64,000 nt of DNA, from contig NZ_SRSG01000059.1 of the NCBI RefSeq assembly GCF_005543295.1, positions 199,247 through 263,246 of the forward strand, written 5' to 3'. Source of the DNA: Halalkalirubrum salinum (GTDB lineage: Archaea; Halobacteriota; Halobacteria; Halobacteriales; Haloferacaceae). The translations under genes were made by a program, and so were the position numbers. The notes below the pieces were generated by a model. It made no database searches. It was not told the origin of the DNA and saw only the letters and a list, made by a program, of their open reading frames with translations. This document shows, piece by piece, positions 29,903 through 37,842 of this stretch. Position 1 is the stretch's first letter, and the number at the start of each line of letters is the position of its first letter.

Positions 29903-31174
29903 ATGACCCACACGACAACCGTACTCGTTATTGGCGGTGGCGCAACCGGCGTCGGGATCGTTCGGGACCTTGCACTCAGAGGTATTGATGCGACACTCGT
30001 CGATCGCGGCGGACTCGCAAGCGGAACCTCGGGGCGGTCTCACGGCCTGTTACACAGCGGCGCGCGCTACGCAGAGGCCGATCCAAACGGTGCCAAAGAG
30101 TGTATCGAGGAAAATCGGATTCTTCGGGATATTGCGGGTGAATGCATTCGCGACAGCAGCGGGCTGTTTGTCGAGCTTTCAGAAGACGATTCGGCGTACT
30201 TCGAATCAAAGCTGGATGCGTGTCACGATCTTGGGATCCCGGCGACCGAGCTGACCGGCACGGAGGCCAGAGCACGCGTGGCCGATCTCTCCGAGACGGT
30301 CCAGCGGGGCTTTGCCGTTCCGGACGGCGTCGTCTACCCGTCTCGGCTCGTCGCAGCGACAGCCGGAGATGCAGTCGAACACGGAGCGACGATCCACACA
30401 CACGCGCCGGTCGAAGGGATAACGACGACCGCCGGCGACGATCGACGAATCCAATCAGTCGCAGTGGGCGGGACCGTGGATGACGAAATCCGTGCGGAGA
30501 TCGTCGTCAACGCCGCCGGTGCGTGGGCTGAAGGCTGCGCAGCGATGGCTGACGTGTCGGTGCCAATGCGCCCGACAAAAGGCGTCATGGTGGCCGTTCC
30601 GTACGAAGGGATCGAGCCAGTCCTCAACCGCTGTCGACCGCCAGCCGACGGCGACATCATTATCCCGCATGACGAGCAGGTGATCCTGGGAACAACAAGC
30701 GTGGCGGTCGACGATCCCGACGAGTACGCTACCGACGCTGCTGAGATCGAGTTGATGTTCGACGAGTGCGCTGCGATGGTGCCCGCGCTTAAGCGCCGTA
30801 GCGCTGTCCGGCCCTACTGGGGCGTCAGACCACTGTACGCGCTCGATGAGGACGATCGAGGCACCGTTGACGAAGGAACTGGCGACGCCCGAGGCATCTC
30901 GCGGGATTTCACCCTCCTCGATCATCGGAAAGATGGCGTCGAAAACTTCCTGACGATCGTCGGCGGCAAACTCACCACCCACCGCCAGATGGCAGCGGCC
31001 GTCGCCGATCGTATTGCCGATCGTCTCGGGGTGACGACTGCGTGTCGGACCGCTGAGCAACCGCTCGCAGCCGCAGACGACCCGGCAGCGATCGATGCAC
31101 TTGTCGATCAGTTTGACGCGCGATCGCCCGCCGACGAGGACGTTCTCACGCACCCGGAGCACATAGAGACCTGA
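29903..31174 (+). CDS. GlpA-like FAD-dependent glycerol-3-phosphate dehydrogenase, C-terminally short
   Basis: A 423-residue FAD enzyme: VLVIGGGATGVGIVRDLALRG at the start, then GTSGRSHGLLHSGARYA and, near 260, LGTTSVAVDDP, as in GlpA/GlpD. Haloarchaeal GlpA is about 580 residues. Here the homology stops at FDARSPADEDV and the last codons lie in a 29-bp tandem repeat that supplies the stop. The Fe-S (BFD-like) C-terminal domain is missing, and no glpB, glpC or glpK is adjacent. It may be a degenerating paralogue or a different FAD oxidase. Confidence 0.8.
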   Translation: MTHTTTVLVIGGGATGVGIVRDLALRGIDATLVDRGGLASGTSGRSHGLLHSGARYAEADPNGAKECIEENRILRDIAGECIRDSSGLFVELSEDDSAYFESKLDACHDLGIPATELTGTEARARVADLSETVQRGFAVPDGVVYPSRLVAATAGDAVEHGATIHTHAPVEGITTTAGDDRRIQSVAVGGTVDDEIRAEIVVNAAGAWAEGCAAMADVSVPMRPTKGVMVAVPYEGIEPVLNRCRPPADGDIIIPHDEQVILGTTSVAVDDPDEYATDAAEIELMFDECAAMVPALKRRSAVRPYWGVRPLYALDEDDRGTVDEGTGDARGISRDFTLLDHRKDGVENFLTIVGGKLTTHRQMAAAVADRIADRLGVTTACRTAEQPLAAADDPAAIDALVDQFDARSPADEDVLTHPEHIET

Positions 31175-31274
31175 ATGACACAATGAAGCACATAGAGACC
31201 TAAATGACACAATGAAGCACATAGAGACCTGAATGACACAATGAAGCACATAAAGACCTGAATGACACAATGAA
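31160..31274. repeat. Minisatellite, four 29-bp units at the glpA 3' end
   Basis: Copies at 31160-31188, 31189-31217, 31218-31246 and 31247-31274, each beginning CACATAGAGACCT or a one-base variant, run head to tail. The glpA stop is in the first copy. Units carry stops in several frames. They are AT-richer than the surroundings and contain no CGATCG. Confidence 0.92.
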
Positions 31275-31582
31275 TATCTGACGTCCAACTGTTTGCGGGC
31301 GTTACGATCTCCTTGCGCACGCGAGACCGGAGCCCGCACAACCGAACAATGTGCGCGGCGGGGACCCCGGTCACCAGAATGACAGCACGAAAAACTCGTG
31401 TCGTAAGTGGCGTAAAAGCGTCGAGCGCATTGGAAGCGTCGATAGCGCGGACTGTTGAGGAATCTGTATTCTATACTTTGTATGTTCGCGTTACCAGCAC
31501 GATCGGCAGCCGGATTGGATATGTAGTCAAAAAATTGTCCATTTGCATGAACTATACCAGTCCGGAGTACATCCAGCAGGGT
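31275..31582. other. Gene-free spacer with a TATA-like box
   Basis: No gene is supported in these 308 nt, although one plus-strand frame stays open across them into the regulator. CTATAC near 31552-31557 is about 28 nt before the regulator's ATG and is a likely leaderless promoter element. The sequence is AT-richer than average. Confidence 0.6.
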
Positions 31583-32137
31583 ATGACACAACGCGTCACT
31601 GTCTCGCTCGACGACGATTCGAAGACGTCACTTGAGAGGCTCAGTACTGAAACGGGCAACGGACAAAGCGAAGTTATCCGCCGTGCACTGGCATTTTACG
31701 CGGCGAACTTCGGGGCGGCAAAAGTCCAACCAAGTGATAACTTAGAACAGTACTACCAGATGCTCTCGTCTGGCGAGCACATTCTGTTAGATGTCGACTT
31801 CCTACACGCCTTCCTCGAACACGTCTACGATCGTGATGGGCCCGATCCGTCGTTCGTCGAGGCCGCCGATCGGGTCTCAGACTATCACGCTTGTGAGTAC
31901 GCAGAACGATTCGACGACATCGGAGACGTACTCGAGTGGCTCTCGTTCTGTGGGTTTCTTGCGGTTCGACACGAAGATGACGGAGTGTATCACGTCGTGT
32001 TCCCATCTGAGCCGGTTCGCTGGTTCATGTCGCGATTTATTGAGCGCAGCACAGCCGAGTTACCGACCGACATCAGGATCGAGCCGGGCGTTTCAAAAGC
32101 GATCATTACCGAGCGTCCGGCGGCGGATACAGTGTGA
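31583..32137 (+). CDS. Ribbon-helix-helix regulator with ligand-type C-terminal domain
   Basis: A 184-residue protein. MTQRVTVSLDDDSKTSLERL followed by GQSEVIRRALAFYAANF is a CopG/MetJ-type ribbon-helix-helix DNA-binding domain (residues 1-45). The rest (about 55-180) is a separate domain that contains LLDVDFLHAFLEHVYD and a short C-terminal strand pair, presumably for sensing or dimerisation. It is directly upstream of the Nramp-like transporter and the hyuAB genes and is the obvious candidate for their regulator. ATG 31583 fits the TATA box. Confidence 0.8.
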   Translation: MTQRVTVSLDDDSKTSLERLSTETGNGQSEVIRRALAFYAANFGAAKVQPSDNLEQYYQMLSSGEHILLDVDFLHAFLEHVYDRDGPDPSFVEAADRVSDYHACEYAERFDDIGDVLEWLSFCGFLAVRHEDDGVYHVVFPSEPVRWFMSRFIERSTAELPTDIRIEPGVSKAIITERPAADTV

Positions 32138-32259
32138 TGTGTCACCTCATACCATTTCATACGGTTTCACACCAGCTTTTTTGATCGCCCCACCGCGTAT
32201 GAGGAATGCTTAACAACTTTTTTACAAAACACAGCGAGGCTTGTGAGTGGATAACGAAT

Positions 32260-33495
32260 ATGTCACTCACAGATCGTCTGAAATCGGTTGGACCCGGTGC
32301 ATTAGTCGCAGCGGCGTTCATCGGACCCGGAACCGTCACGACAGCAAGCGTCATTGGCGCAGAATACGCCTACGTACTACTTTGGACAATCGTCTTCTCG
32401 ATTTTGGCGACCATGGTGCTCCAAGAGATGAGCGCCCGATTGGGGTTGATTACCCAGCAAGGCCTAGGTGAGGCGTTGCGCAAGCAGTTCGACAATCCCG
32501 TGTTGAGCGCGATCGCGGTCGGGCTGGTGGTGACGGCGATCGGTATTGGCACAGCTGCGTTTCAGACCGGAAACATCACCGGCGGTGCAGCGGGACTCAC
32601 GACGATCACCGGCGTGGGAGAGAACGTCTGGGGCCCGGTTATTGGGCTCGTCGCCGGGGCGTTACTGTTCACTGCCAATTACAAGCTCATCGAGCGGGTC
32701 TTTATCGGGCTCGTGGTGGTGATGGGGCTTGCATTCGTCGTGAACGCAATCGCCGTTCGACCCGACTTCGGCGCGCTGAGTGTCGGGCTCGTCCCCACAA
32801 TACCGGACGGTTCGGCGCTGCTGATTGCCGGACTTATTGGTACGACGGTCGTAGGATACAACCTCTTTCTGCATGCGAGTACGGTCCAAGAGAAGTGGAG
32901 CGATCCGGATGACCTCAAGGAGGTCCAGTACGACACGATCCTTCTCGTCGCGGTCGGCGGGCTAATTACCATGGCAATCGTCATCACCGCTGCGGCAGTG
33001 TTCCCGGAGGGCACCACGATCGCAGATGTCGGCGAAATGGCCGACCAGCTCGAGCCGGTCATGGGAGGATATGCGCTGACGTTCTTCGCGATCGGCTTAT
33101 TCGCGGCTGGCTTTACGAGTGCAATGAGCGCACCGCTCGCCGGGGCATACGCCACAGCGGGTGCACTCGGCTGGGAGCGGGACCTCAAATCTACTCGATT
33201 CAGGGCAATCTGGATGACGATCCTCGGGGTCGGTATTATTTTCTCCGGGATGGGTTTCAACCCGGTGGAAGTCATTCTTCTCGCACAGGTTGCGAACGGG
33301 CTGCTGTTGCCTATTCTCGCGATCTTCCTAATCTACGCGATGAACAACGAGGCGTTGCTCGGTGAGCACACGAACTCTCCTGTGCAAAACGTGCTCGGGG
33401 GTATCGTCACGCTGGTCGCGATCATGATCAGCGTGTTGACACTCAACGACAATCTTCCGGCGTTTATTGAGGTTCTGACTGGATTACTCGGATAA
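32260..33495 (+). CDS. Nramp-like transporter of the oxoprolinase/hydantoinase type
   Basis: A 411-residue protein with about 11 hydrophobic segments in the Nramp (LeuT-like) pattern. TM1 reads AAFIGPGTVTTASVIG where metal-transporting Nramps have DPGN, and TM6 has NLFLHAS without the usual Met before the Pro-His. The metal ligands are therefore missing. ATG 32260 (MSLTDRLKSVGPG) is preferred; an in-frame ATG at 32206 would add 18 residues encoded by promoter-like T-rich DNA. Bacillus YcsG, an Nramp-like protein encoded with oxoprolinase genes, is a precedent for this setting, and here hyuA follows 5 nt later. Substrate inferred: an organic compound for HyuAB rather than a metal. Confidence 0.82.
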   Translation: MSLTDRLKSVGPGALVAAAFIGPGTVTTASVIGAEYAYVLLWTIVFSILATMVLQEMSARLGLITQQGLGEALRKQFDNPVLSAIAVGLVVTAIGIGTAAFQTGNITGGAAGLTTITGVGENVWGPVIGLVAGALLFTANYKLIERVFIGLVVVMGLAFVVNAIAVRPDFGALSVGLVPTIPDGSALLIAGLIGTTVVGYNLFLHASTVQEKWSDPDDLKEVQYDTILLVAVGGLITMAIVITAAAVFPEGTTIADVGEMADQLEPVMGGYALTFFAIGLFAAGFTSAMSAPLAGAYATAGALGWERDLKSTRFRAIWMTILGVGIIFSGMGFNPVEVILLAQVANGLLLPILAIFLIYAMNNEALLGEHTNSPVQNVLGGIVTLVAIMISVLTLNDNLPAFIEVLTGLLG

Positions 33496-33500
33496 TCAGT

Positions 33501-35513
33501 ATGCAAAAAGAAACCGCGATCGGCGTCGACGTCGGCGGCACGTTCACCGACGTGGCGTTGTCAGTAGACGATCGACTCGTAACGGCGAAAGTACCGACGA
33601 CCGACGACCAGAGCGTCGGCGTCTTAGCGGGGATCGCGAAAGCCTGCGAGACGGCCGGAATCGATCCGAGCGATCTCGACGAGTTCGCCCACGCGATGAC
33701 CGTATCGGTCAATGCCCTGCTCGAGCGTGGTGGCGCGAAGACTGCACTCGTGACGACCGAGGGCTTTCGAGATGTCTTAGAGATTGGCCGGCAGGACCGA
33801 CCAGACTTGTACGATCTCGAGGTAGAGAAACCGGAACCGCTCGTCCCGCGACGACGACGATTCGAGGTCGACGAGCGAACCACGGCCGAGGGCGTCGAAC
33901 AGCCGGTCGATCCCGACGCAGTGCGTTCGCTCGCGGCGACTCTCAGAGCACAGGACATCGAGGCCGTCGCCGTCTCCCTGCTGCACGCCTACGCAGATCC
34001 CACGAACGAGGCAGTCGTTACTGAGATCCTTCGAAAAGAACTCGACGTCCCAGTTTCGGCCTCCCACGAGGTGCTCGCAGAATTCCGTGAGTACGAGCGT
34101 ACTTCGACGACAGCCGTCGACGCCTACGTTCGACCGGCGATCGACAGCTACGTCGGCCGACTGGTCGAAGAAGCACAAGCGTCGGGGATTCCTGCACCGA
34201 AGATCATGCAGGCCAACGGCGGGATCGCCGATCCCGAAACGGTCCGTAAACACGCCGTGACGACGACGCTTTCGGGCCCCGCAGCCGGCGTTGTCGGCGC
34301 TGCGGCGACCGTCGACGACACCGACGTCGAGGGACTCGTCACGTTCGACATGGGCGGGACCTCAAGCGACGTCAGTCTCGTCCGGGACGGCGACGCAGAA
34401 CGGACGACTGATTCTGAGATCGCGGGCATCCCGATCCGCACGCCAATGGTCGACGTCAACACCGTCGGCGCGGGCGGCGGTTCCATCGCCTGGGTCGACA
34501 CCGGTGGGGCGTTGCGTGTCGGCCCCCGATCTGCGGGTGCCAATCCCGGCCCCGCCTGCTACGGACGTGGGGGAACGGAAGCGACGGTGACCGACGCTAA
34601 CGTCGTGCTCGGCTACATCGGAGCCGAGACTGCTCTCGGTGGCGAGATGACGCTCGACGTCACGGCTGCCCGCGATGCGCTCGAGGCACTCGCTGCGGAA
34701 GCGGGACTCGGGGGCGCACTCGAGGCAGCCCAGGGCGTCTACCGCGTCGCCAACGCGACAATGACCCGGACGATCCGATCGGTGACCGTCGAGCGAGGGC
34801 ACGACCCGCGCGAGTTCGCGCTCGTCGCCTTCGGGGGGGCCGGCCCAATGCACGCAACCGCACTCGCGGAGGCGCTCGAGATCGACCGCGTTGTCGTTCC
34901 TCGACCCAGCGGTGTGCTTTCGGCGTTCGGGCTGCTGGCGGCCGACGAGAGCTACGACGCCGTGCGGACAGTAGGTGTTGAGCTGTCCACGGCCGATCGC
35001 GACCGACTCGATCGTGTGTACGACGATCTCGTTTCTGACGTCCTCGCAGACGTTTCAGACCGTGACACGGCGGTCGTTTCACGTGCCGCTGACTGTCGAT
35101 ACGCCGGGCAGAGCTTCGAGTTGACAGTTCCTGTCGACGAGACGCTCGACATGTCAGCAATTCGAGAGCGATTTCAGGAGGCCCACGATCGGGCCTACGG
35201 CTACACGATGCAAGCGGAGATTGAGATCGTCAATCTGCGAACAACGGCGACGGTCGAAGGAGCTGAACCGGTCGTCCGTCACGACGGTAATGGAGACGCC
35301 GTACTCGGCAGTCGAGAAGCACACTTCCCAGATGTCGGTCCCAGAGAAACAGCCGTGTACGATCGCGACCGACTGGAGAGCGGGACGACGATCACCGGGC
35401 CAGCAGTGTTAGAACAGGCAGAGAGTACGACCGTCATGCCACCCTCTTGGGTGGGTGATGTGCTCGCGGACGGAACGCTCGTTATGCGCCAGGAGGATAT
35501 ACGCAACCGATGA
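33501..35513 (+). CDS. hyuA: Hydantoinase/oxoprolinase subunit A
   Basis: A 670-residue ATP-dependent amidohydrolase subunit of the N-methylhydantoinase A / 5-oxoprolinase family. The N-terminal part has AIGVDVGGTFTDVALS and MTVSVNALLERGGAKTALVTT. The actin-like core has VTFDMGGTSSDVSLV (about 280), TVGAGGGSIAWVD and GPACYGRGG (about 350). The enzyme opens cyclic amides such as 5-oxoproline or hydantoins using ATP. It overlaps hyuB by 4 nt, so the subunits are translationally coupled. Confidence 0.92.
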   Translation: MQKETAIGVDVGGTFTDVALSVDDRLVTAKVPTTDDQSVGVLAGIAKACETAGIDPSDLDEFAHAMTVSVNALLERGGAKTALVTTEGFRDVLEIGRQDRPDLYDLEVEKPEPLVPRRRRFEVDERTTAEGVEQPVDPDAVRSLAATLRAQDIEAVAVSLLHAYADPTNEAVVTEILRKELDVPVSASHEVLAEFREYERTSTTAVDAYVRPAIDSYVGRLVEEAQASGIPAPKIMQANGGIADPETVRKHAVTTTLSGPAAGVVGAAATVDDTDVEGLVTFDMGGTSSDVSLVRDGDAERTTDSEIAGIPIRTPMVDVNTVGAGGGSIAWVDTGGALRVGPRSAGANPGPACYGRGGTEATVTDANVVLGYIGAETALGGEMTLDVTAARDALEALAAEAGLGGALEAAQGVYRVANATMTRTIRSVTVERGHDPREFALVAFGGAGPMHATALAEALEIDRVVVPRPSGVLSAFGLLAADESYDAVRTVGVELSTADRDRLDRVYDDLVSDVLADVSDRDTAVVSRAADCRYAGQSFELTVPVDETLDMSAIRERFQEAHDRAYGYTMQAEIEIVNLRTTATVEGAEPVVRHDGNGDAVLGSREAHFPDVGPRETAVYDRDRLESGTTITGPAVLEQAESTTVMPPSWVGDVLADGTLVMRQEDIRNR

Positions 35514-37129
35514 CGAACAGAACCGACGACCGAATCGATCCGATCACGCTCGAGGTGTTGCGCAACCAGTTCGAAAGCGCCGCCGAAGAGATGGGACAAA
35601 CCCTGATTCGTGGGGCGTACTCACCAAATATCAAAGAACGGCGAGACTGCTCGACCGCACTGTTCGACGCGGCGGGCCGGATGATCGCGCAGGCCGAACA
35701 CATCCCGGTGCATCTCGGTGCGATGCCACAGGCCGTCGACGCCGTCAAAACGTACGATCCTGAACCGGGCGACGTCTTTGTGCTCAACGATCCCTTCAGC
35801 GGAGGCACCCACTTGCCGGACGTGACGATGGTCTCACCGCTTGCACCCGAGGGTGAGATTGTCGGGTACGCTGTCTCGAGAGCCCACCACGCAGACGTCG
35901 GCGGGATGACCCCCGGAAGTATGCCCGCCGGTGCACGCGAGATCTATCAGGAAGGGCTTCGCATTCCACCGATTCGTCTCGTCGAAAACGGCGAGATTCG
36001 CGAAGACGTTCGCTCGCTCGTGCTCGCGAACGTGCGAAATCCTAGCGAACGAAAGGCAGACTTCCGTGCGCAGCTGGCGGCGAACGAACGCGCGGAGGTC
36101 CGCCTCGCGTCGCTGTTCGACGAACACGGACGCGAGACCGTCATCGACGGGTTCGATGCCTTGATCGAGTACTCTCGCGAGCGGATCGTCCGCGAGATCG
36201 AGGCGCTTCCGGATGGAACGTACAAGGCGACGGATCTCCTCGAGGGTGACGGGCTCACAGACGAGGACATCGAGATCGCCGTGACAGTAACTATCGACGG
36301 CGACACGATCGACGTCGACTTCACCGGAACGGCCGACCAGGTCAGCGGCAACCTCAACGCACCCCTTGCGGTCGCGATGAGCGCAGTTTACTTTGTCGTT
36401 CGCTGTGTCACAGATCCCGAAATTCCGCCGAATCACGGCTGTTATGAGCCCATCACAGTCGAGGCGCCGAAGGGATCGTTGCTCAATCCCGAGCCACCGG
36501 CGGCGGTTGTCGGCGGGAACGTCGAGACCAGCCAACGGGTCACCGACGTTGTCTTCACAGCGCTCGCAGCAGCTGCCCCCGGCCGCGTTCCCGCACAGAG
36601 TCAGGGCACGATGAACAACCTGACGATCGGCGCACGGGACGGCTCTTTTACCTACTACGAGACGATCGGCGGTGGCTTCGGTGCGCGTGCAAACAAAGAC
36701 GGGATGGACGGCGTGCAGGTTGGGATGACGAACACGCTCAACACGCCCATCGAGTCGATCGAGACGGAGTACCCCTTGCGGGTCGAACGGTATGCGTTCA
36801 GGCCGAACAGCGGCGGTCGCGGCCAGTTCCGTGGCGGGCTCGGCATCGAGCGAACCGTTACCGTCGAGCGAGACGCGACGATTTCGCTTTTGACCGAACG
36901 TCGTCGCCACGCGCCGAAAGGCGTCGACGGCGGCAAAGACGGGGGGCTGGGAGCGAATCTGATCGACGACGAGCCGGTCGCAGCCAAGACAACTGTCGAC
37001 GTCGAGGCGGGGACCACAGTAACGGTTAGAACCCCCGGTGGCGGCGGCCATGGCGACCCCAACGATCGTGACGAAAAGGCGAGGGCGGCCGACCACGCAG
37101 ACGGAAAGCGAACCGAAGGTGATCAATGA
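35510..37129 (+). CDS. hyuB: Hydantoinase/oxoprolinase subunit B
   Basis: A 539-residue partner of HyuA. The family stretches DPITLEVLRNQFESAAEEMG, FVLNDPFSGGTHLPDV and, near residue 365, AQSQGTMNNLTIG are all present, as is GGGFGARANKDGMDGVQ. The end, VTVRTPGGGGHGDPNDRD, is standard for HyuB. An AGGAGG-like site lies 12 nt before the ATG. Substrate (oxoproline, hydantoin or related ring) cannot be decided from sequence. Confidence 0.92.
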   Translation: MTNRTDDRIDPITLEVLRNQFESAAEEMGQTLIRGAYSPNIKERRDCSTALFDAAGRMIAQAEHIPVHLGAMPQAVDAVKTYDPEPGDVFVLNDPFSGGTHLPDVTMVSPLAPEGEIVGYAVSRAHHADVGGMTPGSMPAGAREIYQEGLRIPPIRLVENGEIREDVRSLVLANVRNPSERKADFRAQLAANERAEVRLASLFDEHGRETVIDGFDALIEYSRERIVREIEALPDGTYKATDLLEGDGLTDEDIEIAVTVTIDGDTIDVDFTGTADQVSGNLNAPLAVAMSAVYFVVRCVTDPEIPPNHGCYEPITVEAPKGSLLNPEPPAAVVGGNVETSQRVTDVVFTALAAAAPGRVPAQSQGTMNNLTIGARDGSFTYYETIGGGFGARANKDGMDGVQVGMTNTLNTPIESIETEYPLRVERYAFRPNSGGRGQFRGGLGIERTVTVERDATISLLTERRRHAPKGVDGGKDGGLGANLIDDEPVAAKTTVDVEAGTTVTVRTPGGGGHGDPNDRDEKARAADHADGKRTEGDQ

Positions 37130-37842
37130 TCGACGACGACTCACGGGGTCGACTTGGCCTGGTGGTCCCCTCTTCAAACACGACCGCAGAGGTCGAGTTT
37201 TCCCAATACACCCCCGAAGGTGTCTCGATTCACGCGGCACGAATGCCGCTCGAGTCAGTCACGGTCGACGAACTCGATTCGATGAGTGCGGATGCGTCCC
37301 GGGCAGCCGAGCTACTGGGGCACGCCAACGTTGACGTCGTCGCGTACGCCTGTACAACCGGGAGCCTTCTCCACGGCCCCGGGTTCGACGCCGAGTTGGA
37401 GGAGGCGCTTTCGGCCGCAGCCGGTGTTCCGGCAGTTGCCACGGCCCGCTCGGTCGTCCGAGCTCTCAACACCCTCGGAGCCGAACGAATCGCTGTCGCA
37501 ACGCCGTATACCGCTGATCTCGACGAGCGAGAACGAGACTTCCTCGAGGCGGCTGGCTTCGAGATCGTCGCGATGGATGGCCGCGCGATCGAGGCGAACA
37601 CGGAAATCGGTGCGCTCGGACCCGGCGACGCACACAACCAGGTGGTGATACTCTCGGAGACGACCGGAAGCGTCGATGCCATCTTCGTCTCCTGTACGAA
37701 CTATCGGGCTATCGATGCGGTCGAGTCCCTCGAGTCAGAACTTGAGATCCCGGTGATAACGAGCAACAGTGCGACGCTATGGGATGCGTGTCGCGTCTCG
37801 TCGATCGCCACGGACGGAGCGGGAGTACTGTTCGATCACTAA
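37126..37842 (+). CDS. Asp/Glu/hydantoin racemase-superfamily protein (maleate isomerase-like)
   Basis: A 238-residue protein with the two catalytic cysteines of the superfamily, VAYACTTGSL (about residue 69) and FVSCTNYRA (about 190). GRLGLVVPSSNTTAE at the start is like maleate cis-trans isomerase and arylmalonate decarboxylase. Overlapping hyuB by 4 nt, it would supply the enantiomer or isomer handled by HyuAB; hydantoin racemisation is the most economical guess. It ends the operon before an inverted repeat. Confidence 0.82.
   Translation: MIDDDSRGRLGLVVPSSNTTAEVEFSQYTPEGVSIHAARMPLESVTVDELDSMSADASRAAELLGHANVDVVAYACTTGSLLHGPGFDAELEEALSAAAGVPAVATARSVVRALNTLGAERIAVATPYTADLDERERDFLEAAGFEIVAMDGRAIEANTEIGALGPGDAHNQVVILSETTGSVDAIFVSCTNYRAIDAVESLESELEIPVITSNSATLWDACRVSSIATDGAGVLFDH

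Follow-up and report, generated by a model that had tools for sequence, protein, structure and literature searches.

The window, a stretch of 64,000 nucleotides from Halalkalirubrum salinum (contig NZ_SRSG01000059.1, GCF_005543295.1), contains at 31583-37842 five genes reading in the same direction which, judging from open reading frames (ORFs) and Pfam matches, encode a ribbon-helix-helix (RHH) regulator, an Nramp-like protein, HyuA, HyuB and a racemase-like protein. The sequence evidence makes it probable that these genes constitute an inducible scavenging cassette, in which an Nramp-related importer would take up a small carboxylated cyclic amide and HyuAB would open its ring under the control of the RHH protein. 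That the imported substrate is organic and amide-like can be regarded as likely, and the strongest evidence for an importer of organic substrates in the Nramp slot is an importer swap which was detected in four genomes.

In a survey of 392 genomes of the order, 149 genomes match the Nramp query at E 1e-30 and 112 hold a close orthologue (E 1e-119, a cut-off set by us, as was the value of E 1e-205 used for HyuB orthologues). The close orthologues are at least 54% identical to the query, apart from G081, which was counted as Nramp-positive from fragments; the rest of the 149 genomes hold only a group of proteins with 30-35% identity. In the 43 close Nramp loci that were read (L032-L074), HyuA adjoins the Nramp gene in 38 cases, the regulator is present in 38 and the racemase-like gene in 33. 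Because close orthologues occur in 112 of 392 genomes and gene order is kept across families, the cassette is not a chance arrangement. Where HyuA is not adjacent, the locus may lie at a contig end (L038, L053) or have HyuAB about 3 kb away in the other orientation (L058). A HyuB orthologue is present in 109 of the 112 Nramp-positive versus 157 of the 280 Nramp-negative genomes (Fisher p 1e-18, a value that ignores kinship), and together with the adjacency of HyuA this supports the functional tie between the Nramp-like protein and HyuAB that an earlier note on this DNA (the original prediction) had claimed. On plasmid pHME505 of Haloferax mediterranei, the genes for regulator, Nramp, HyuA and HyuB are consecutive; the NCBI annotation calls the plasmid-borne copies divalent metal transporters. 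None of 20 loci read from the haloarchaeal 30-35% group has a Hyu gene nearby, and these proteins were therefore rejected as functional relatives. Thirteen bacterial plasmid matches of the Nramp query were also read and showed no Hyu or Pxp gene in the stretches viewed. The features of the cassette are as follows.

31548..31557, + strand: conserved promoter-like TGAACTATAC before the regulator gene, suggesting a separate transcription unit (conserved among loci)
31583..32137, + strand: ribbon-helix-helix regulator gene (Pfam RHH_1)
32146..32172, + strand: putative operator, three TTCAYAC direct repeats with a period of 10 bp (CTCATAC CAT TTCATAC GGT TTCACAC)
32197..32202, - strand: repeat core in inverted orientation (GTATGA on the + strand), possible fourth half-site (read directly)
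32210..32223, + strand: promoter-like element TTAACAAC(C/T)(C/T)TTTT before the Nramp gene (alignment of the window and 14 loci)
32260..33495, + strand: Nramp-related transporter (Pfam PF01566; a longer ORF of 429 residues begins at 32206)
33501..35513, + strand: HyuA, ATP-binding (ASKHA) subunit of a hydantoinase/oxoprolinase (Pfam)
35510..37129, + strand: HyuB, hydrolase subunit with metal site (Pfam; alignment to 6yra_B)
37126..37842, + strand: isomerase of the Asp/Glu-racemase superfamily, Amdase/EutA/maleate isomerase branch (Pfam Amdase)

Exchange of the importer and loss of metal ligands

In four genomes (G346, G242, G312 and G022), the repeats follow the gene for a regulator with 58-61% identity to that of the window and precede another gene, which is followed by genes for HyuA (46-48%) and HyuB (54-56%). 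For G346 and G312, the two cases tested, the product of the other gene is a binding protein with a Peripla_BP_6 domain, and the closest solved relatives of the G346 protein are amino-acid and Leu/Ile/Val-binding proteins. After HyuB, G022 encodes an MFS protein, two permeases of the branched-chain type and two ABC ATPases, and the other genomes with swapped operons have ORFs resembling them. The C-terminal domain of the regulator aligns throughout between Nramp-type and swapped-type regulators. From these matches it appears that an importer of the amino-acid/amide type (HAAT) has been put in the place of Nramp and, as this happened under a related regulator, with the same repeats and the same enzyme family, a metal is a much less likely substrate than an organic, amide-like compound.

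The Nramp-like protein scores 320.6 bits against Pfam Nramp (PF01566, cut-off 29.8) over 356 of 357 positions, which places it in the superfamily, and 109.4 against NCBIfam Nramp_1 (cut-off 50). The original prediction had described GPGT instead of DPGN in transmembrane helix (TM) 1 and the loss of the TM6 ligand, and both were confirmed. Chain alignment to BfraNramp (10ky) and DraNramp (8e5s) reveals the replacement of DPGN by GPGT and of MPH by VGY, and ten plasmid Nramps aligned with the window protein all retain DPGN and MPH. In the ORF of 429 residues, GPGT occupies residues 40-43, and GNITGG and GTTVVGY lie in TM3 and TM6, respectively. The TM3 glutamate (E134 in DraNramp, E116 in BfraNramp) is Asn in the window family, an assignment that is fairly but not fully sure because of a 5-residue gap in the TM3 alignment. 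All full-length close orthologues that were read have GPGT, with GTTVVGY or close variants such as GTTVVSY, GTTIVGY and GTQIVGY in TM6. Lacking the canonical metal ligands, the protein is a candidate importer of an organic substrate. Loss of the motifs alone is insufficient to exclude a metal, because YcsG of the Bacillus subtilis oxoprolinase operon has been reported as a Mn2+ importer and named MntG (PMC10448178) and EleNRMT, which has no canonical motif, is reported to move Mg2+ and Mn2+ (PMC12873925). An AlphaFold2 model of the window protein from 19 aligned sequences had a mean pLDDT (predicted local distance difference test) of 37 and was set aside. A second haloarchaeal Nramp-related group (L075-L094) mostly has GSGS in TM1 and WPNFF in TM6, and in some of its loci an ORF of about 258 residues resembling a membrane protein adjoins the Nramp-related gene.

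Putative operator, transcription units and the HyuAB core

RHH_1 matches residues 4-40 of the regulator with 35 bits (cut-off 20.5), and the C-terminal domain, which is conserved and about 140 residues long, shows invariant GEH-LLD-D and WLS-CGF stretches in the alignment. Both observations support the proposal of an RHH regulator with a C-terminal domain of its own, which we consider a putative sensor. RHH repressors use short tandem repeats, and in aligned upstream regions of Nramp genes TTCAYAC recurs as a direct repeat every 10 bp exactly, accompanied by a conserved TTAACAA--TTTT element. The window has three such repeats at 32146-32172, between the regulator stop codon and the Nramp start; they are its sole match, with none in 100 shuffles, and also the sole match in the 3.4-Mb genome at up to 3 mismatches (0 for a reversed control). 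A looser score finds repeats at 28 of 46 Nramp loci, 97-133 nt ahead of the Nramp start; the 20 stand-alone HyuAB loci have none, and one further weak match in L065 is placed elsewhere. At up to 2 mismatches, the 392 genomes contain 63 matches, 48 of which, from 47 genomes, precede an Nramp gene on the same strand by no more than 250 nt. Four of the 15 matches elsewhere belong to the swapped operons, the five further sites that were read (L183-L187, six matches, two of them overlapping) have no cassette gene, and the other five matches are in G090, G314, G149, G110 and G252. TTCAYAC-like units at other spacings occur in L068, L069 and L109, and GTATG is kept at the place equivalent to 32197..32202 in the aligned Natrialbaceae upstream regions. 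The stretch 32146-32172 is thus likely to be the operator of the regulator. The original prediction had put the regulator site at 31480-31583; no operator is seen there, and a search for TTCAYAC repeats upstream of the regulator gene found none.

The five ORFs were confirmed at the predicted places, with 4-nt overlaps between HyuA and HyuB and between HyuB and the racemase-like gene; the gap between the Nramp stop codon and hyuA is 5 nt. The Nramp gene probably starts at 32260 rather than 32206, as most orthologues begin at the equivalent of residue 19. A GTGAACTATAC-type stretch lies about 26-35 nt ahead of the regulator ATG in L036, L040, L041, L043 and L045, with a variant in L037; this promoter-like stretch was found in Natrialbaceae and differs from the element preceding the Nramp gene. 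The regulator and the Nramp gene are separated in L044 and L047-L050 by a cobalt-transport (cbi) cluster on the opposite strand (coordinates about 5400-7800 in L044, L047 and L048 and 3900-6400 in L049/L050; CbiM was Pfam-tested for L044). As separate promoter-like stretches precede the regulator and the Nramp gene and the cbi cluster intervenes in some loci, a single transcript of all five genes is unlikely and was rejected in favor of two units. In L052, the regulator gene has apparently been cut down to its promoter and first codons and fused to the Nramp promoter, a natural loss of the regulator.

HyuAB appears to be the older core, around which the regulator, the Nramp gene and the racemase-like gene were added. 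HyuB orthologues occur in 266 of the 392 genomes, 157 of them without a close Nramp orthologue, and the claim of a complete operon was overstated, because HyuAB is a widespread stand-alone pair to which the rest has been added. At a site shared by Natrialbaceae, the Nramp and racemase-like genes are present in 15 loci (the regulator in 14) and none of the three in 8; the site is flanked upstream by 2-hydroxyacid dehydrogenase-like and NUDIX/IF-2B genes and downstream by CofE and nearly always a luciferase-like gene. Since this site occurs with and without the addition, which flanks HyuAB on both sides, the addition comes and goes. In a tree of 59 HyuB proteins, in which L049-L052 with broken or partly matched Nramp genes were scored as Nramp-positive, the Nramp label must switch 11 times, with starred branches forcing a minimum of 4 of these switches. 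All 20 Nramp-negative rows and 6 of the 39 Nramp-positive rows lack the racemase-like gene. The 20 stand-alone loci are 20 of the 157 such genomes and come from the best-scoring ones listed. A test on independent pairs gave a median p of 0.25, there being too few supported pairs for significance.

In the neighborhood of the cassette, four copies of a 29-bp tandem repeat lie just 5' of the regulator gene (31158-31274), and an oxidoreductase dependent on flavin adenine dinucleotide (FAD; DAO family, GlpA-like) is encoded upstream at 29903-31174. The latter is found beside the cassette elsewhere solely in L032, of the same genus, and L033 has a 48% relative in the opposite direction. Similar thiolase-like ORFs were noticed in L071 (5192-7806), by an Nramp/regulator pair without HyuAB, and in L181 (1922-3124), by a swapped-operon regulator; they are a possible link to the pathway.

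Enzymes and candidate substrates

HyuA matches Hydant_A_N, Hydantoinase_A and Hydant_A_C, and HyuB matches Hydantoinase_B. With the residues of the ATP and metal sites of CapAB as reference (taken from PMC8453981 as given there), the ATP motifs DVGGTFTD, DMGGT and PGP of HyuA are kept in 58 of 58 orthologues, and HyuB residues D46, H101, D104 and H126, which align with the CapB metal ligands of 6yra_B, are likewise kept in all 58. HyuAB reaches 501 and 303 bits against the CapAB equivalogs NF050156/NF050157 (cut-off 1000) and remains far below the acetophenone carboxylase equivalog cut-offs. The motif NIKERRDC of HyuB is common to a pTiA6 protein, and NIKER is common to a fusion protein from Acidovorax (L166), which we infer to be of the oxoprolinase type from its neighbors, a D-glutamate cyclase gene and two genes for DctP (TRAP) binding proteins. 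The racemase-like protein scores 127 bits with Pfam Amdase, and its two presumed catalytic cysteines, C76 and C190, are present in 33 of 33 orthologues; it reaches 119.4 of 225 bits for the arylmalonate decarboxylase equivalog and 117.7 of 318 bits for EutA. On the Ti plasmids, HyuAB with the NIKER motif (L163, L169) lies beside an FAD oxidoreductase gene, and ABC transporter genes are present in both stretches; we presume that these proteins may open opine lactams, and we take agaF/agaG of Ti plasmids to be hydantoinase-like genes for agropinic acid, a statement we did not find in the literature. H. salinum itself has a second Hyu cluster (L135, contig C17, 97000-112500) with one HyuA, two HyuB, a creatininase-family gene and an amidohydrolase, which is perhaps for creatinine or a compound like N-methylhydantoin.

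A pathway can be proposed from these assignments. What the Nramp-related carrier would import is not a metal ion but a small cyclic amide with a carboxyl group, 5-oxoproline or a near relative being the most likely candidate; HyuA would phosphorylate the ring amide with ATP and HyuB would hydrolyse it, releasing glutamate in the case of 5-oxoproline. The two-cysteine racemase-like enzyme would probably convert a stereoisomer that cannot be used, a step for which we see even chances. The RHH protein would bind the three TTCAYAC repeats and keep the Nramp gene repressed for as long as the C-terminal domain of the regulator senses neither substrate nor product. The cyclic amide class named in the original prediction is supported, and for the substrate in particular 5-oxoproline is the best single guess, to be held tentatively. 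A widespread stand-alone HyuAB suits this universal damage product. The H. salinum genome has neither PxpA, a dedicated 5-oxoprolinase subunit, nor a D-glutamate cyclase. A complementary distribution of PxpA and HyuB was considered as a sign that HyuB is the haloarchaeal 5-oxoprolinase and was rejected: of the 77 genomes whose only HyuB is distant, 8 have PxpA, as does 1 of 20 listed genomes that lack HyuB.

A hydantoin or another cyclic ureide is a possible but less likely substrate, which would be taken up, racemized and opened by HyuAB at the expense of ATP, and then processed by a carbamoylase encoded elsewhere. The superfamily of the racemase-like gene includes hydantoin racemases, as stated in PMC4996985, an N-methylhydantoinase is the top PDB match of both HyuA and HyuB, and L072 has Nramp, racemase and creatininase-family genes beside a convergent amidase of the hydantoinase/carbamoylase family. 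One carbamoylase-family amidase is encoded in the H. salinum genome, and such amidases occur in 87 of the 112 Nramp-positive versus 171 of the 280 Nramp-negative genomes; however, the other 25 Nramp-positive genomes have no carbamoylase-family match. The presence of HyuAB in 266 of 392 genomes, mostly without an Nramp gene, suggests a common internal metabolite, and the NIKER motif, which is common to the oxoprolinase-type and the two Ti-plasmid proteins, differs in N-methylhydantoinase, in CapB and in the other HyuB copies of H. salinum.

Alternatively, the Nramp-like carrier and the racemase might act on another organic compound, such as an open-chain amide or a dicarboxylate, with HyuAB serving a housekeeping metabolite and being merely co-transcribed. 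HyuAB is indeed widespread without the Nramp gene, Nramp genes without nearby HyuAB exist in L071 and L072, and the racemase branch includes maleate isomerases; the tight, short spacing of the genes and the retention of HyuAB with a new importer in the four swapped operons make this distinctly unlikely. It is similarly improbable that the Nramp-like protein still moves a divalent metal (Mn2+, Mg2+ or Co2+) to supply the HyuB metal site, the linkage reflecting co-regulation: although YcsG and EleNRMT are precedents, HyuB retains its four metal ligands, the protein passes the Nramp_1 cut-off as the sole Nramp of the genome and a cobalt-transport cluster lies beside the Nramp gene in five loci, neither the canonical ligands nor the TM3 Glu are left, two ZnuA-type binding proteins of H. 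salinum offer an alternative metal route, 157 genomes have HyuB but no Nramp gene (20 such loci are among the 58 with kept metal ligands), and a related regulator and the same repeats precede an importer of the amino-acid type.

Several findings weigh against a scavenging cassette for 5-oxoproline or a related cyclic amide. PxpA is commoner where the Nramp gene is present (33 of 112 genomes) than where it is absent (22 of 280), and in genomes with PxpA, HyuAB would be a second, redundant enzyme for 5-oxoproline. In 2 of the 43 loci, L071 and L072, the Nramp gene has no HyuAB nearby, and in L072 a creatininase-family gene and a carbamoylase-family amidase take its place. At up to 2 mismatches, 65 of the 112 Nramp-positive genomes have no upstream repeat match. 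The species has no second Nramp, so that redundancy within the family gives no argument against a metal role. HyuAB of the swapped operons is a paralogue and its substrate could therefore differ. HyuB differs at residues 406-415 from the oxoprolinase-type fusion L166, and it has NTLNTPIE where the fusion has NSRLTDPE; the motif of OPLAH proteins was checked on this fusion. The window Nramp is only 24-26% identical to YcsG-type proteins and forms a separate branch of the tree, in which the program flags long branches.

Comparison with known systems

Nramp proteins are the textbook importers of divalent metals, and most of the Nramp-related groups without the motif are described as uncharacterised in PMC12873925, namely those besides EleNRMT and the hypothesised MntG ('G-motif 3'). 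The cassette described here would be an independent family with a clean genetic logic, comprising a unique operator-like site, an enzyme pair that stays constant while its importer is an optional addition, and an exchange of importers that has occurred in nature, and the question can be tested in the tractable haloarchaeon H. mediterranei with its pHME505 cassette. We give an even chance to the wider proposition that a haloarchaeal Nramp branch separate from YcsG/PxpT imports organic cyclic amides and is exchangeable with a HAAT-type ABC importer under one RHH repressor that senses cyclic amides. If true, more than one lineage would have arrived at an organic side of the Nramp fold, and in about 112 of the 392 sampled haloarchaeal genomes the orthologues would be misnamed as divalent metal transporters. 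An Nramp for organic substrates would be reminiscent of amino-acid carriers in the APC superfamily with their GxG substrate site. Among the entries listed from the open-licence literature on Nramp with oxoproline, hydantoin or hydantoinase and on haloarchaea with oxoprolinase or pyroglutamate, none describes this cassette.

The precedent of Bacillus YcsG, which the original prediction had invoked, holds in part. PxpT of Corynebacterium glutamicum, an NRAMP-family relative of YcsG, is reported to be required for growth on 5-oxoproline (PMC13274462), and on plasmids of Bacillus badius and L. plantarum a YcsG-type Nramp is encoded within pxp operons with a D-glutamate cyclase. The description of YcsG as a Mn2+ importer makes the substrate of YcsG-type proteins, 5-oxoproline or Mn2+, a matter of dispute between the reports, and the window protein falls outside the YcsG group. 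Like PxpT-PxpABC and Bacillus YcsG/MntG as reported, the cassette combines an NRAMP-family protein with an ATP-dependent lactamase and a putatively substrate-sensing repressor. YcsG-type plasmid relatives, like the window protein, have no DPGN or MPH, and both share GPG in TM1, F-xx-GNI-xG in TM3 and G-x-TV-x-GY in TM6. In contrast to the bacterial systems with PxpABC and GntR, the cassette is archaeal and has HyuAB, an RHH regulator and a racemase-like gene, with an Nramp identity of about 25% to YcsG types.

With EleNRMT and the 'Nramp-related' groups, the cassette Nramp shares membership of the Nramp family without the canonical metal and proton residues, whereas EleNRMT is a Mg2+ transporter of another group, as far as reported (PMC12873925). 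HyuAB resembles CapAB, N-methylhydantoinase and OPLAH-type 5-oxoprolinase in the ATP motifs of HyuA and the Asp-His-Asp-His metal site of HyuB, but lacks the vicinal Cys pair, remains under the CapA/CapB cut-offs and differs from the fusion protein in the motif near residue 410. Similarly, the racemase-like protein matches the family of EutA, arylmalonate decarboxylase and maleate isomerase and has both cysteines, but unlike EutA and arylmalonate decarboxylase it falls under both equivalog cut-offs.

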